Assembly (NCBI GenBank): GCA_947497945.1
Contig: CANMIP010000014.1
Span: 1-64,000, forward strand
Direction of reading: 5' to 3'
Length of the DNA stretch: 64,000 bases
Source: an uncultured Tropicimonas sp.
GTDB lineage: Bacteria; Pseudomonadota; Alphaproteobacteria; Rhodobacterales; Rhodobacteraceae
Shown here: piece after piece, positions 42,346-54,075 of the stretch
How the letters are laid out: every line of letters begins with the position of its first letter
Position numbering within the stretch: position 1 is the stretch's first letter
Made by a program: the position numbers and the translations under genes
The notes under the pieces: generated by a model
What the model was told of the DNA's origin: nothing
What the model saw: the letters and a program-made list of their open reading frames with translations, nothing else
The model's database searches: none

Positions 42346-43484
42346 CGATTGCTCACCATCTGCCGCGCCACGATCAGGCGCATGATCTCGTTCGTGCCTT
42401 CGAGGATCTGGTGCACGCGCAGGTCGCGCACGATCTTCTCGATGCCGTAGTCCGCGAGATAGCCGTAGCCGCCATGCAGTTGCAGGCATTGGTCGGCCAC
42501 GCGGCTGCCGGCCTCGGTGACGAATTTCTTGGCCATGGCGCAGAATTTCGTCGCGTCCGGCGCGCCGGTGTCCAGCTTCCAGGCGGCCTGGCGCAGGAAG
42601 GTGCGCGCGGCCTGCAACTCGATCTCCATGTCGGCTAGGCGGAACTGCAGCGCCTGGAACTGGTCGATGCTCTGCCCGAACGCCTTGCGCTCGGACATGT
42701 AGAGCAGCGTCGCGTCCAGTGCGGCCTGCGCGGCGCCGAGGCTGCAGGCGGAGATGTTCAGCCGCCCGCCATCGAGCCCGGCCATCGCATAGGTAAAGCC
42801 GCGCCCTTCCTCGCCGAGCAGGTTCTCCGCCGGCACAGGGGCGTCGTCCATCTGCACGGCCCGTGTCGGCTGGCTTTTCCAGCCCATCTTGGCCTCCAGC
42901 CCGCCATAGGAGAGCCCCGCCGTGCCATCTTCGATCACCAGTGCGGAGATGCCTTTTGGACCGTCCGCCCCGGTGCGCGCCATGACGATATAGGCGTCCG
43001 AATAGCCCCCGCCGGAGATGAAGGCCTTGGTGCCGGTGAGGCTGTAGCCCGCATTGCTGCGCACAGCCTTCGTCTTCAGTGCCGCGGCGTCCGATCCCGA
43101 ACCCGGTTCGGTCAGGCAATAGGAAAACACCGTCTGCATGCTGAGCGCGCGGGGCAGGTAGCGGGCCTTGAGGTCTTCAGAGCCGAACCCGTCCAGCATC
43201 TTGGCGCACATGTTGTGGATCGACAGGAAGGCCGCCACGGAGGCGCAGGACATCGACAACGCCTCGAAGACCAGCGTCGCGTCGAGACGGCTCAGCCCGG
43301 AGCCGCCCGAGTTCTCGGAGACGTAGAGACCGCCAAAGCCCAGCTCGGCCAGTTTCGGCCAGAGATCCTTCGGGATCGTTCCCTCCTCCTCCCAGCGGGC
43401 GGCGTTGGGTGCGATGAATTCTTCGCCAAAGGCGCGGGCCATGTCGAATATGGCCGCCTGCTCCTCGGTCAGTGCGAAATCCAT
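42342..43484 (-). CDS. Acyl-CoA dehydrogenase (isobutyryl-CoA dehydrogenase type)
   Basis: 380-residue FAD enzyme. Started at MDFALTEEQAAIFDM after GGGGAGGAAG. Motifs: FSYCLTEPGSGSDAAALKTKA (FAD/substrate binding), GTKAFISGGGYSD, and the C-terminal QLHGGYGYLADYGIEKIVRDLRVHQILEGTNEIMR, with the catalytic Glu in LEGTNE. As first gene of an operon with HIBYL-CoA hydrolase and mmsB it probably acts on isobutyryl-CoA. Confidence 0.93.
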   Translation of the reverse strand: MDFALTEEQAAIFDMARAFGEEFIAPNAARWEEEGTIPKDLWPKLAELGFGGLYVSENSGGSGLSRLDATLVFEALSMSCASVAAFLSIHNMCAKMLDGFGSEDLKARYLPRALSMQTVFSYCLTEPGSGSDAAALKTKAVRSNAGYSLTGTKAFISGGGYSDAYIVMARTGADGPKGISALVIEDGTAGLSYGGLEAKMGWKSQPTRAVQMDDAPVPAENLLGEEGRGFTYAMAGLDGGRLNISACSLGAAQAALDATLLYMSERKAFGQSIDQFQALQFRLADMEIELQAARTFLRQAAWKLDTGAPDATKFCAMAKKFVTEAGSRVADQCLQLHGGYGYLADYGIEKIVRDLRVHQILEGTNEIMRLIVARQMVSNR

Positions 43485-51037: not shown

Positions 51038-51118
51038 AAAAAAAAGCGGCGACACCGGGAGGAGGGGTGTCGCCGCCTGTTGACTGCTGGCCCTGTGAGG
51101 GAGGAGAGGGGCCGCAGT
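51038..51118 (-). ncRNA. CcsR-like sRNA unit, single copy, after DUF1127 gene 1
   Basis: Two consecutive hairpins on the minus strand, 11 bases after a DUF1127 stop. The first (51083-51093 with 51108-51118, one bulge) has loop TCTCCTCCCTCACA. The second (51046-51056 with 51066-51076, perfect 11 bp) has loop CCTCCTCCC and runs into eight Ts, a Rho-independent terminator. Paired hairpins with CCUCCUCCC loops behind a DUF1127 gene are the defining features of the CcsR sRNAs of Rhodobacter sphaeroides. Function here is inferred from that likeness. Confidence 0.82.
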
Positions 51119-51129
51119 ATCCTGTCAGA

Positions 51130-51348
51130 TCAGGCCTTGCTGGCGGCCTCGCGGGCCAGTTCACGGAACATCGCGCGGCTCAGGCCGAGGTCGCGGAGGT
51201 CGCGGTCTTGAAGCGACTTCAGTTCGTTCAAGGTCTGATGGTAGGCCACAAACTGGCGCAGCTTGGTCCGCAGGCCCTCGACCATGCCGAAGATCCCGGA
51301 AGCCTCGAGGCCGGTTTCAACGCGGTTGGTGGTGGCAGCGATTTCCAT
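51130..51348 (-). CDS. DUF1127 small RNA-binding-like protein 1
   Basis: 72 residues. Started at MEIAATTNRVET (AGGA eight bases upstream; an ATG two codons earlier is too close to it). The C-terminal half, LNELKSLQDRDLRDLGLSRAMFRELARE, is the DUF1127 motif (L..L.DRDLRDLGL.R). The DUF1127 protein CcaF1 of R. sphaeroides binds RNA and helps mature the CcsR sRNAs; this gene is likewise followed by a CCUCCUCCC-hairpin unit and terminator. Confidence 0.9.
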   Translation of the reverse strand: MEIAATTNRVETGLEASGIFGMVEGLRTKLRQFVAYHQTLNELKSLQDRDLRDLGLSRAMFRELAREAASKA

Positions 51349-51413
51349 TTTCATCTTCCTTCGGATTGCCCGGGACCATCCCGAGCCGGGTTTCAAAGCG
51401 CTTCGATGTGAAC

Positions 51414-51430
51414 TGTTAGCGCTCTCGTTG
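51414..51430 (-). promoter_or_regulatory. Motif shared by both DUF1127 promoters, copy 1
   Basis: TGTTAGCGCTCTCGTTG on the + strand (minus: CAACGAGAGCGCTAACA), 66 bases before the DUF1127 gene 1 start. It differs from the copy upstream of DUF1127 gene 2 at one base. Probably part of a common stress promoter; in R. sphaeroides ccaF1-ccsR is RpoHI/RpoHII-dependent. Confidence 0.6.
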
Positions 51431-51960: not shown

Positions 51961-52389
51961 CTAACCGCGGACGTAATGCACCAATTGCTCGATGTTGAAC
52001 TGATGCTCGTCAATGATGCTCTTCATCAGGTCACCGATGGATACCAGACCAACCAGGCGTCCGTCATCGATGACGGGCAAATGGCGGATGCGTTTCTCTG
52101 TCATGAGCGCCATGCATGCTTCCACGGTCTGATCCGAAGTCACATAGATGACATCCGGCTCCATCACATCCCTGACAGGAGTGGACGGTGACGTCCTTCC
52201 GGCCAAAAACACATTCCTGGCATATTGGCGCTCGGTAAAGATGCCCTCGACGGTTTCGCCGGTCACTACCATCACCGAGCCAATGTCCGCGTCAGCCATC
52301 AGACGCAATGCGTCCAGCACCATCTGATCGGGGCCTACGGTTGCCACCTCATGCCCCTTCTGTTCGAGAATCTGGTTGATTTTTGTCAT
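51961..52389 (-). CDS. CBS-domain pair protein
   Basis: 142 residues made almost entirely of two CBS domains: residues 8-60 (KGHEVATVGPDQMVLDALRLM ... GIFTERQYARN) and 75-130 (VIYVTSDQTVEACMALM ... RHLPVIDDGRLVGLVSIGDL). Such stand-alone pairs bind adenine nucleotides and modulate partner proteins. It has a good ribosome-binding site (AAGGGGG) and an intact frame, unlike the broken relative at 30.4 kb. The partner is unknown. Confidence 0.9.
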   Translation of the reverse strand: MTKINQILEQKGHEVATVGPDQMVLDALRLMADADIGSVMVVTGETVEGIFTERQYARNVFLAGRTSPSTPVRDVMEPDVIYVTSDQTVEACMALMTEKRIRHLPVIDDGRLVGLVSIGDLMKSIIDEHQFNIEQLVHYVRG

Positions 52390-52989: not shown

Positions 52990-53072
52990 AAAAAAATGGC
53001 GGCGACACCAGGGAGGAGGAGGGTGTCGCCGCCGATATGACAGAAAACCCAGGGAGGAGGAGAGGTTCTCTG
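52990..53072 (-). ncRNA. CcsR-like sRNA unit 5 of the array, with terminator
   Basis: Minus-strand hairpin pair: the first at 53041-53049/53064-53072, the second a perfect 12-bp stem at 52998-53009/53022-53033 running into seven Ts. Both loops contain CCTCCTCCC. This is the only unit of the array with a T-tract, so it ends the whole transcript. Confidence 0.85.
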
Positions 53073-53123
53073 ATCTGGAACCGCGCCTTTCGGCACGGGC
53101 CGGGGAAACCCGGCGAATAAGGT

Positions 53124-53194
53124 GCGGCGACATCAGGGAGGAGGAAGATGTCGCCGCGTAACCGAGAGATCCAGGGAGGAGGACGGATCTTCGG
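53124..53194 (-). ncRNA. CcsR-like sRNA unit 4
   Basis: First hairpin 53162-53172/53184-53194 (one bulge, one G-U), second 53124-53134/53147-53157 (perfect 11 bp). In the second stem an A-T pair replaces the C-G pair of units 3 and 5 (GACATC with GATGTC), so pairing is conserved over sequence. Loops carry CCTCCTCCC. Confidence 0.85.
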
Positions 53195-53252
53195 AACTCT
53201 ATGGTCGCTGCGCCGTCGGGGCGCGTGCCGGACAGTCCGGCGGAATTTGGGT

Positions 53253-53323
53253 GCGGCGACACCAGGGAGGAGGAAGGTGTCGCCGCGTAACCGAAAGACC
53301 CAGGGAGGAGGACGGATCTTCGG
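53253..53323 (-). ncRNA. CcsR-like sRNA unit 3
   Basis: First hairpin about 53291-53301/53314-53323 (imperfect), second 53253-53263/53276-53286 (perfect 11 bp). Loops carry CCTCCTCCC. The linker to unit 2 (53324-53376) is clearly related to the linker between units 4 and 3, showing that whole units were duplicated. Confidence 0.85.
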
Positions 53324-53376
53324 AACTTTATGTCGCTGCGCCGCTCAGGCGCGCCGGAGGCCCGGCCGTGTAAGTT

Positions 53377-53445
53377 GCGGTGACACCAGGGAGGAGGTGG
53401 GTGCCGCCGCCGAAACCGTGACCCAGGGAGGAGGTGGGGCCGTCT
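53377..53445 (-). ncRNA. CcsR-like sRNA unit 2
   Basis: Second hairpin 53377-53387/53400-53410 with one G-U and one mismatch. The first hairpin (about 53418-53443) is the weakest stem in the array. Loops carry CCTCCTCCC. Confidence 0.8.
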
Positions 53446-53481
53446 GGCTTCGTATGTCTGCCCATTCGGGCGGTGTCTTGT

Positions 53482-53552
53482 GGCGGCAACCCCAGGGAGG
53501 AGGAGGGGGCTGCCGCCGTATCAGAAAACCCAGGGAGGAGGACGGGTTTCTG
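53482..53552 (-). ncRNA. CcsR-like sRNA unit 1 (promoter-proximal)
   Basis: Starts 12 bases after the DUF1127 gene 2 stop. First hairpin 53522-53531/53544-53552 (one bulge), second 53482-53493/53506-53517 (one mismatch, CCCC/GGGG top). Loops carry CCTCCTCCC. No terminator follows it, so it is read together with the DUF1127 gene and processed. Confidence 0.85.
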
Positions 53553-53564
53553 AAACTCTATCTC

Positions 53565-53768
53565 TTAAGCCGTTTGCGCGGCCTGCTGGGCCACCGACCG
53601 GATCATCTTCCGGCTGAGCCCCATATCGCGAAGCTCGCCATCGGTCAGGGCCGACAACTCGCTCAGCGCCTGGCGATAGGCCCGGCTGCGGTCGAGGCGC
53701 ACGCGGGCGCCGCGAAAGGCGGCAGTCATCCAGCGTGTGGAGCGGCTGTCTTCTGCTGTCTGCTTCAT
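53565..53768 (-). CDS. DUF1127 small RNA-binding-like protein 2 (CcaF1-like)
   Basis: 67 residues. Started at MKQTAEDSRSTRW after AAGGAGA. The N-terminal half is basic and helical; the C-terminal LSELSALTDGELRDMGLSRKMI is the DUF1127 motif. It is directly followed on the same strand by five CCUCCUCCC-hairpin units, the arrangement of ccaF1 and ccsR1-4 in R. sphaeroides, where CcaF1 binds RNA and affects sRNA maturation. By position it is the best CcaF1 counterpart in the window. Confidence 0.92.
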   Translation of the reverse strand: MKQTAEDSRSTRWMTAAFRGARVRLDRSRAYRQALSELSALTDGELRDMGLSRKMIRSVAQQAAQTA

Positions 53769-54075
53769 GGCCGTCTCCTTTCTCTTCCGGCCCGGATCAT
53801 TCCGGCTTGTTAACCAACCTGCATCGGGCAGGTTTAAATTCCGTTAGCGCCTGACTTGGTTTCTGTTAGCGCCCTCGTTGATACTCAAGATAGGGATAAG
53901 GCCGGTTTTCACAATCGCCCCCGGCTTCAATGCCGCTATGCAGCATTTGCATACGTTGTGCTGACCTTTTGCAGGGCGGGCTGCTGCTTTTTTATGCGGC
54001 GCCGGAACGCCACTTGCGCTCGGGGCGCTGCGCGATAGGTGTGAAGCACGGAATTCCGGAAGAGTAGGTAGGAAA
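53769..54075. other. Divergent promoter region, DUF1127 gene 2 / mrp
   Basis: This 307-bp gap holds the shared motif at 53864-53880 and a second partial copy GTTAGCGC at 53843-53850 for the leftward DUF1127 transcript, and the promoter of the rightward mrp gene. No gene seen. Confidence 0.5.
53864..53880 (-). promoter_or_regulatory. Motif shared by both DUF1127 promoters, copy 2
   Basis: TGTTAGCGCCCTCGTTG on the + strand, 96 bases before the DUF1127 gene 2 start. It matches copy 1 at 16 of 17 positions. A CTTGAG lies just upstream on the minus strand, compatible with a heat-shock-sigma -35, though spacing differs at the other locus. Confidence 0.6.

Follow-up and report, generated by a model that had tools for sequence, protein, structure and literature searches.

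A five-unit CcsR-like small RNA array behind a DUF1127 gene in an uncultured Tropicimonas sp., and a DNA element shared upstream of such operons

Anatomy of the array

The window analysed here, a stretch of 64,000 nt from an uncultured Tropicimonas sp., carries on its minus strand a gene for a ccaF1-like DUF1127 protein of 67 aa (53565-53768; PF06568, E 3.3e-9), right behind which ten strand-specific hairpins, forming five two-hairpin units, extend from 53558 to 52990. The original prediction had described these ten hairpins and five units with a boundary at 53552; the array begins at ~53558 instead. All ten hairpins have the loop sequence CCUCCUCCC in common, and the exact 9-mer CCTCCTCCC was found in 10 of 10 loops, with first bases (minus strand) at 53541, 53503, 53434, 53397, 53311, 53273, 53182, 53144, 53060, and 53019. 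By composition, 0.03 copies are expected over this 590-nt region and 1.3 over the two strands of the 64-kb window. Two further copies are present in the window, at 43385 on the plus strand and at 51065 on the minus strand, the latter falling in a second DUF1127 locus. Loops are spaced 37-41 nt apart within units and 69-91 nt between them, and the array folds with -269.1 kcal/mol versus -205.8 kcal/mol for shuffles (z = -10.1, 0 of 100 shuffles equal). The predicted hairpins and units are thus confirmed.

The stems differ between hairpins yet stay paired, as had also been claimed. With ten inner stem pairs scored in each of the ten hairpins, 89% of pairs were standard, a proportion that dropped to 39-57% when the partner was slid by 1-3 nt and to a mean of 70% (maximum 82%) when 3' arms were re-dealt among the ten hairpins in 200 deals. 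Across 534 distinct hairpins from the fetched loci, pairing was 67.5% versus ≤60% when slid and 52.7% with re-dealt 3' arms, this set being looser in that one fixed geometry was forced on bulged hairpins and loop identity was the criterion of selection. The proposed alternation of weaker and perfect stems stood in its first half, the first hairpins of the units (-12.5 to -15.2 kcal/mol) being weaker than the second (-16.6 to -26.5 kcal/mol; 51-nt windows), and only in part in its second: four of the five second stems are unbroken, while that of unit 2 contains one mismatch. A T-tract follows the final hairpin only (T7, 52990-52996), in agreement with the prediction, making the second hairpin of unit 5 the array's only T-tract terminator.

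Assignment to the CcsR type and other loci in the genome

A covariance-model search, suggested with the original prediction as a check, was run against Rfam. At a permissive threshold, RF02791 (CcsR1) matched all five minus-strand units over its full length (1-83 of 83; E 9.6e-14 to 3.5e-8): unit 1 at 53478-53558 (53.8 bits, E 1.1e-11, match 53478-53556); unit 2 at 53372-53453 (42 bits, E 3.5e-8, match 53372-53451); unit 3 at 53248-53329 (56.2 bits, E 2.2e-12, match 53248-53327); its sister, unit 4, at 53119-53200 (60.8 bits, E 9.6e-14, match 53119-53198); and unit 5 at 52990-53083 (54.1 bits, E 9.5e-12, match 52994-53081). At the gathering threshold there were no Rfam matches in the 64-kb window, all five units scoring below the 65.3 bits set for RF02791. 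Because even the best unit falls short of this score, as in most genomes of the family, we call the units CcsR-like and not members of RF02791. In a survey of 394 family genomes, run under stricter filters than the loop-pair survey of 292 genomes described below, RF02791 matched at E ≤ 1e-3 in 324 genomes and reached its gathering score in 17; the Rfam threshold thus hides most of the CcsR-type family. RF02344 (ar14/NfeR1) matched in the array with 26-45 bits, versus a gathering score of 58.8.

The locus has the hallmarks of cuckoo RNA/CIN1: at least two hairpins in which the CCUCCUCCC loops are conserved while the stems vary and still pair, and a small co-oriented DUF1127 gene directly upstream, ending at 53565 with unit 1 starting at ~53558. 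The published ccaF1-CcsR1-4 operon (PMC10253847, PMC8625941) is matched by the loci of Cereibacter johrii JA192 and Luteovulum azotoformans ka25, examined as a positive control, in which 8 exact loops follow the gene of a DUF1127 protein of 71 aa. The layout originally proposed therefore holds on the strength of the DUF1127 match, the five full-length, sub-gathering RF02791 matches and this control: the locus is a cuckoo-RNA/CIN1 locus of the ccaF1-CcsR type, a known kind of operon.

Single units were found behind two further DUF1127 genes. The second DUF1127 gene of the window (51130-51354, minus strand; PF06568, E 7.3e-10) encodes 74 aa given an ATG start at 51354, its open reading frame being listed from TTG 51396, and is followed by one CcsR-like unit with a T8 (51038-51122, minus strand), which gave the sixth RF02791 match in the window (51041-51122, 37.2 bits, E 9.6e-7). 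This locus (51038-51354, minus strand), with its own T-tract, starts 1.6 kb past the array, beyond a CBS-domain gene (51961-52389). A third DUF1127-plus-one-unit locus lies on contig C30 (11400-13100) and has an exact copy of the upstream box described below. In both single-unit loci, one loop is exact and the other a variant. Genome-wide, RF02791 at E ≤ 1e-3 identified seven units (the array's five, the one at 51041-51122, and one on C30), all of which sit behind DUF1127 genes; three of the eight DUF1127 genes found carry units.

The position of the array, co-directional with and directly behind its DUF1127 gene, and the T-rich terminator-like hairpin in which the single unit of each of the two other loci ends, would also suit a structure acting mainly in cis, as a 3' UTR stabiliser or terminator tuning the DUF1127 mRNA, with no trans-acting sRNAs. 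We regard this as very unlikely, given that a T-tract follows only one hairpin out of ten, the final one, that stems vary with pairing kept while all ten loops are the same, which a cis stabiliser would not need, and that the same layout in R. sphaeroides yields processed sRNAs targeting an unlinked mRNA (PMC10253847, PMC8307010).

Unit number across the family and in a congener

The original prediction considered five units an expanded array, a reading that counting across genomes did not sustain. The two-loop pattern (loops 31-61 nt apart) occurred in 262 of 292 sampled genomes, all in the window's family, with at least five loop pairs per genome (both strands) in 90, the window's genome included, more than five in 70, and at least ten in 13; loop pairs are not equivalent to units, as tight arrays also give pairs spanning neighbouring units. 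Direct loop counts per cluster in the fetched loci reached 23 (genome G152), 20 (G015 and G114), 17 (G222), and 16 (G236 and G019). Named examples with more than 10 exact loops are Fertoeibacter niger (12) and Rhodobacter ruber (11), and we take the family to be Rhodobacteraceae because some of its genomes carry loci indistinguishable in appearance from those found in Fertoeibacter niger and Rhodobacter sp. SW2. RF02791 matches numbered seven in the window's genome, the top value among the genomes listed being 11, and a DNA-pattern scan of genome contigs returned 16 named stretches of CcsR1 type. Five units as something exceptional are ruled out by these surveys, with 90 of 292 genomes at five or more loop pairs and one cluster of 23 loops: the expansion to five is true relative to R. 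sphaeroides and to one congener, and ordinary across the family.

Very long single-cluster arrays, of 16 to 23 anti-Shine-Dalgarno (aSD) loops, were seen in one genus (g15; G114, G019, G015, and G152; loci L033-L036). On plasmid pCBA4604-01 of Paracoccus jeotgali (NZ_CP025584.1), seven exact loops lie behind a DUF1127 gene, with no gene listed over the array in the plasmid's table, which is incomplete.

Four units make up the array that follows the DUF1127 gene of G297, the only congener in the sample. Identities between the units of the window (W) and of the congener (V) were 83% for W1-V1, 80% for W2-V2, 84% for W3-V3, 83% for W4-V3, and 83% for W5-V4, with other cross pairs at 61-75%, while W3 and W4 are 89% identical to each other (91% in a shorter cut, 7 of 82 positions differing). 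The simplest reading of these identities is a four-unit ancestor whose unit 3 would have been duplicated in the window's genome; loss of a unit in G297 instead is possible and less simple. Unit number is labile, and the correspondence with the congener shows how it changes. In G297, two more DUF1127-plus-one-unit modules follow the array (C6:20700-23400, locus L093), with a fourth DUF1127-like frame seen by eye at the edge; whole DUF1127-CcsR modules, besides single units, may be duplicating.

Tandem units as alike as 3 and 4 (91%) might also be produced by a repeat element at the DNA level whose hairpins are incidental, or by an error of assembly, named in the original prediction as what could undo the array. 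Both are extremely improbable in our judgement, as seven of seven RF02791 units lie behind DUF1127 genes, the units have orthologous counterparts in another genome, where four are present, and units 3 and 4 are separated by seven differences.

A conserved element upstream of array-linked DUF1127 genes

Of the 78 distinct DUF1127-like frames that the fetched loci contain, 73 have a loop ≤150 nt downstream; we compared the upstream regions of 72 of these, one with a short upstream (L036) having been dropped. These 72 linked upstreams are not independent of each other, several coming from the same genera and most loci having been chosen by their arrays. A conserved block precedes these genes, with the core TGCTGCATrGCrGCATTG followed after ~12 nt by aTTGTgcA-n-gcagCa and then by a ccccatgTt-like element. 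Exact copies of the 13-mer CATRGCRGCATTG occur in 47 of the 72 (mononucleotide-shuffle mean 0.0), and the 15-mer TGCATRGCRGCATTG was matched at ≥14 of 15 positions in 62 of the 72, compared with none among 1440 shuffles and none among 10 array-less DUF1127 genes. The five unit-less DUF1127 genes of this genome have box scores of 9-12, and among six of seven plasmid DUF1127 matches, that of P. jeotgali, with its array, scores 14 and five without an array 10-12. Ten linked genes, including the second DUF1127 gene of the window, score only 11-13, and three frames counted as unlinked (in L015, L017, and L019), with small arrays elsewhere in their loci, score 12, which speaks against a strict rule of box and array.

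In the window, the box copy is TGCATAGCGGCATTG (53928-53942, minus strand), overlapping an inverted repeat, ATGCTGCATAGCGGCAT (53930-53946, minus strand). The 5.79-Mb genome has three exact copies of the 15-mer, two of them in front of the array operon and the C30 locus, respectively, and the third inside a frame that by eye resembles a membrane transporter. At the class level, TGCATRGCNGCATTG is present in 44 of 289 genomes, the window's genome and G002 included; a crude regular expression detected a DUF1127-like frame behind it in 0 of 29 loci (L140-L168, with L161 from family member G002), many of which resemble coding sequence, and the box is therefore not established outside the family. 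The shared DNA element before such operons is the least expected and the new observation of this analysis, and the part of it worth a bench test.

Downstream of the box lies a putative core promoter, TTGTGA-N13-CCCTATCTT (53887-53914, minus strand), recognised by eye and from aligned upstream columns, which by eye is RpoH-like. Enrichment of a crude -10 pattern was not clear, with 7 of 72 array-linked upstreams versus 3.9 in shuffles. For R. sphaeroides ccaF1, an RpoHI/RpoHII promoter is reported (PMC10253847).

Other elements before the array's DUF1127 gene include GCGCTAACAG (53863-53872, minus strand) and GCGCTAACGG (53841-53850, minus strand), and GCGCTAAC was found in 9 of 72 linked upstreams versus 0.6 in shuffles. 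For the repeated GCGCTAAC element we considered a CceR operator (TGTTAnCGnTAACA); the candidate form TGTTA-N4-TAACA occurs in 6 of 72 linked upstreams, and none was seen by eye upstream of the window's array gene. Both DUF1127 upstreams of the window have CAACGAG(A/G)GCGCTAACAG in common (53863-53880 and 51413-51430, minus strand), which also stands before the first DUF1127 gene of G297 (L093) and is a possible operator or leader element.

LsrB/VtlR as candidate regulator

The reverse complement of the box consensus, CAATGCTGCCATGCA, is one base off the 15-mer of Brucella VtlR (14 of 15, by hand), quoted as CAATGCAGCCATGCA (PMC12595884), and the window's copy differs from that 15-mer by two bases (13 of 15, by hand). 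Published boxes are GCAT-N3-TG-N3-T for A. tumefaciens and B. abortus (PMC7486931) and TGCA-N6-GCAT for S. meliloti (PMC10746234); neither is strictly matched by the consensus here, which reads GCAT-N3-AG-N3-T and TGCA-N5-GCAT. VtlR is reported to activate the AbcR2 sRNA and three DUF1127 genes in Brucella (PMC12595884), and sRNAs together with the small-protein gene atu1667 in A. tumefaciens (PMC7486931), while LsrB is described as indispensable for S. meliloti NfeR1, whose transcription it activates (PMC10746234).

Of 30 trxB loci viewed at the class level, 14 have a LysR-like gene next to trxB. No LysR gene was present beside trxB in the window's genome, where the neighbour is by eye an AsnC-like frame, and LsrB at that position was accordingly discarded. 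The ortholog lies elsewhere, at C2:265079-265942, with 52% identity to the trxB-linked LysR protein P0002 (E 5.8e-95; next best match 35%). Used as a query, P0002 had one clear best match in each of six out of six family genomes (49-53% identity), the second best being ≤35%. Judged by these protein matches, an LsrB ortholog is present in this family, in line with PMC7486931 and against PMC11975290, in which LsrB is described as confined to Rhizobiales.

LsrB-type control of the array operon through the upstream box may thus be proposed, at even odds as we see it, from likeness of site and protein. The broader proposal, to which we give an equal chance of being right or wrong, is that the family's aSD sRNA arrays are LsrB/VtlR-activated through the conserved box, and that DUF1127, aSD-loop sRNAs, and LsrB would form one old alphaproteobacterial circuit, shared with rhizobial NfeR1 and with VtlR targets in Agrobacterium and Brucella, in which unit number would be a dose setting changed by tandem duplication. 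In the literature searched, CcaF1 and LsrB came up together, among the matches listed, only in PMC12501420, where LsrB figures once, in a reference. LsrB/VtlR is offered as a candidate upstream regulator for a type of operon whose reported control in R. sphaeroides is by RpoHI/RpoHII (PMC10253847).

Proposed operon function and targets

The whole locus is very probably one stress-type operon, made up of the DUF1127 (CcaF1-like) gene and five CcsR-like units. Its anatomy, homology, and conservation, the unit correspondence, and the upstream element are shown by the sequence comparisons above; for its transcription, processing, targets, and regulator we infer the following course. A promoter at ~53887-53914, with the LsrB/VtlR-like element just upstream, would drive a transcript encoding the small DUF1127 protein, followed by the five units, with the T7 of unit 5 as its terminator. 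By analogy with R. sphaeroides, this transcript would be cleaved, with participation of RNase E and the DUF1127 protein, into mRNA and ~80-nt two-hairpin sRNAs, each with two CCUCCUCCC loops that would pair with purine-rich Shine-Dalgarno regions, leading to a block of translation or to mRNA destabilisation, and the five tandem units would multiply the dose from a single promoter. The units, alike in their loops but not in their stems, are probably redundant in what they target, while stability and processing may vary from one unit to the next. The DUF1127 protein of the array is possibly RNA-binding; as DUF1127 proteins of Agrobacterium work by contacting PhoR as well, and can be substituted there by CcaF1 of R. 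sphaeroides (PMC12501420), this property is not assured.

In the whole genome, the full loop complement GGGAGGAGG lies 3-9 nt before an ATG at 8 sites, compared with 3 for a reversed control. Of these 8, one is antisense to the array itself, and only two of the rest stand before open frames longer than 100 aa, which by eye encode an ABC-type permease and an acetyltransferase-like protein of GNAT type. Full-length complements were set aside as a target list, being too few. The array loops are of the same sense as the 16S tail and mimic its anti-Shine-Dalgarno sequence. The competition with 16S rRNA put forward in the original prediction would then apply to mRNA Shine-Dalgarno sites, and not to pairing with the 16S tail itself, whose sense the loops share. 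Such mimicry would likewise suit global decoys, which would occupy Shine-Dalgarno sites across many mRNAs at once and lower initiation during stress in place of acting on a few specific targets. Clusters with up to 23 loops exist, and the scarcity of full-length complements near ATG may mean that action rests on short generic matches. We nevertheless hold this rather unlikely, as relatives have defined targets: CcsR1-4 target flhR mRNA, with CcsR binding Hfq (PMC8307010), and the predicted targets of NfeR1, which has the same loops, are mostly transport mRNAs, some of them confirmed, reached through three redundant motifs (PMC7143759, PMC10746234). For the array's own predicted sRNAs, support for specific targets is thin.

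Comparison with known systems

The closest counterpart is ccaF1-CcsR1-4 of R. sphaeroides, with which the locus shares a DUF1127 gene, tandem two-hairpin CCUCCUCCC-loop RNAs behind it, one final terminator and, possibly, an RpoH-type promoter. It differs in having five units where R. sphaeroides has four, in unit scores (42-60.8 bits) under the RF02791 CcsR1 gathering score, in two extra single-unit loci in the same genome, and in a DUF1127 protein of 67 aa, with 39% identity to its C. johrii counterpart over 51 aa. A five-unit array is thereby added to a known sRNA family.

As in cuckoo RNA/CIN1, a conserved anti-Shine-Dalgarno loop is combined with unconserved stems and a DUF1127 neighbour labelled CIN1 (PMC4504443, PMC10253847), whereas ten hairpins stand here in one run and the motif is described as having 2-4 (PMC4504443), which fits one unit and not the array. 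The CCUCCUCCC loops are identical to those of S. meliloti ar14/NfeR1 (RF02344), which differs in its three hairpins and its own promoter, and for which the available part of PMC10746234 mentions no DUF1127 gene. With the VtlR/LsrB regulon of Rhizobiales, finally, the locus has in common the combination of sRNAs with DUF1127 or small-protein genes, which are activated there by a LysR regulator (PMC12595884, PMC7486931); the box match to that regulon is a likeness of sequence, in which the published consensus boxes are approached and not strictly matched.
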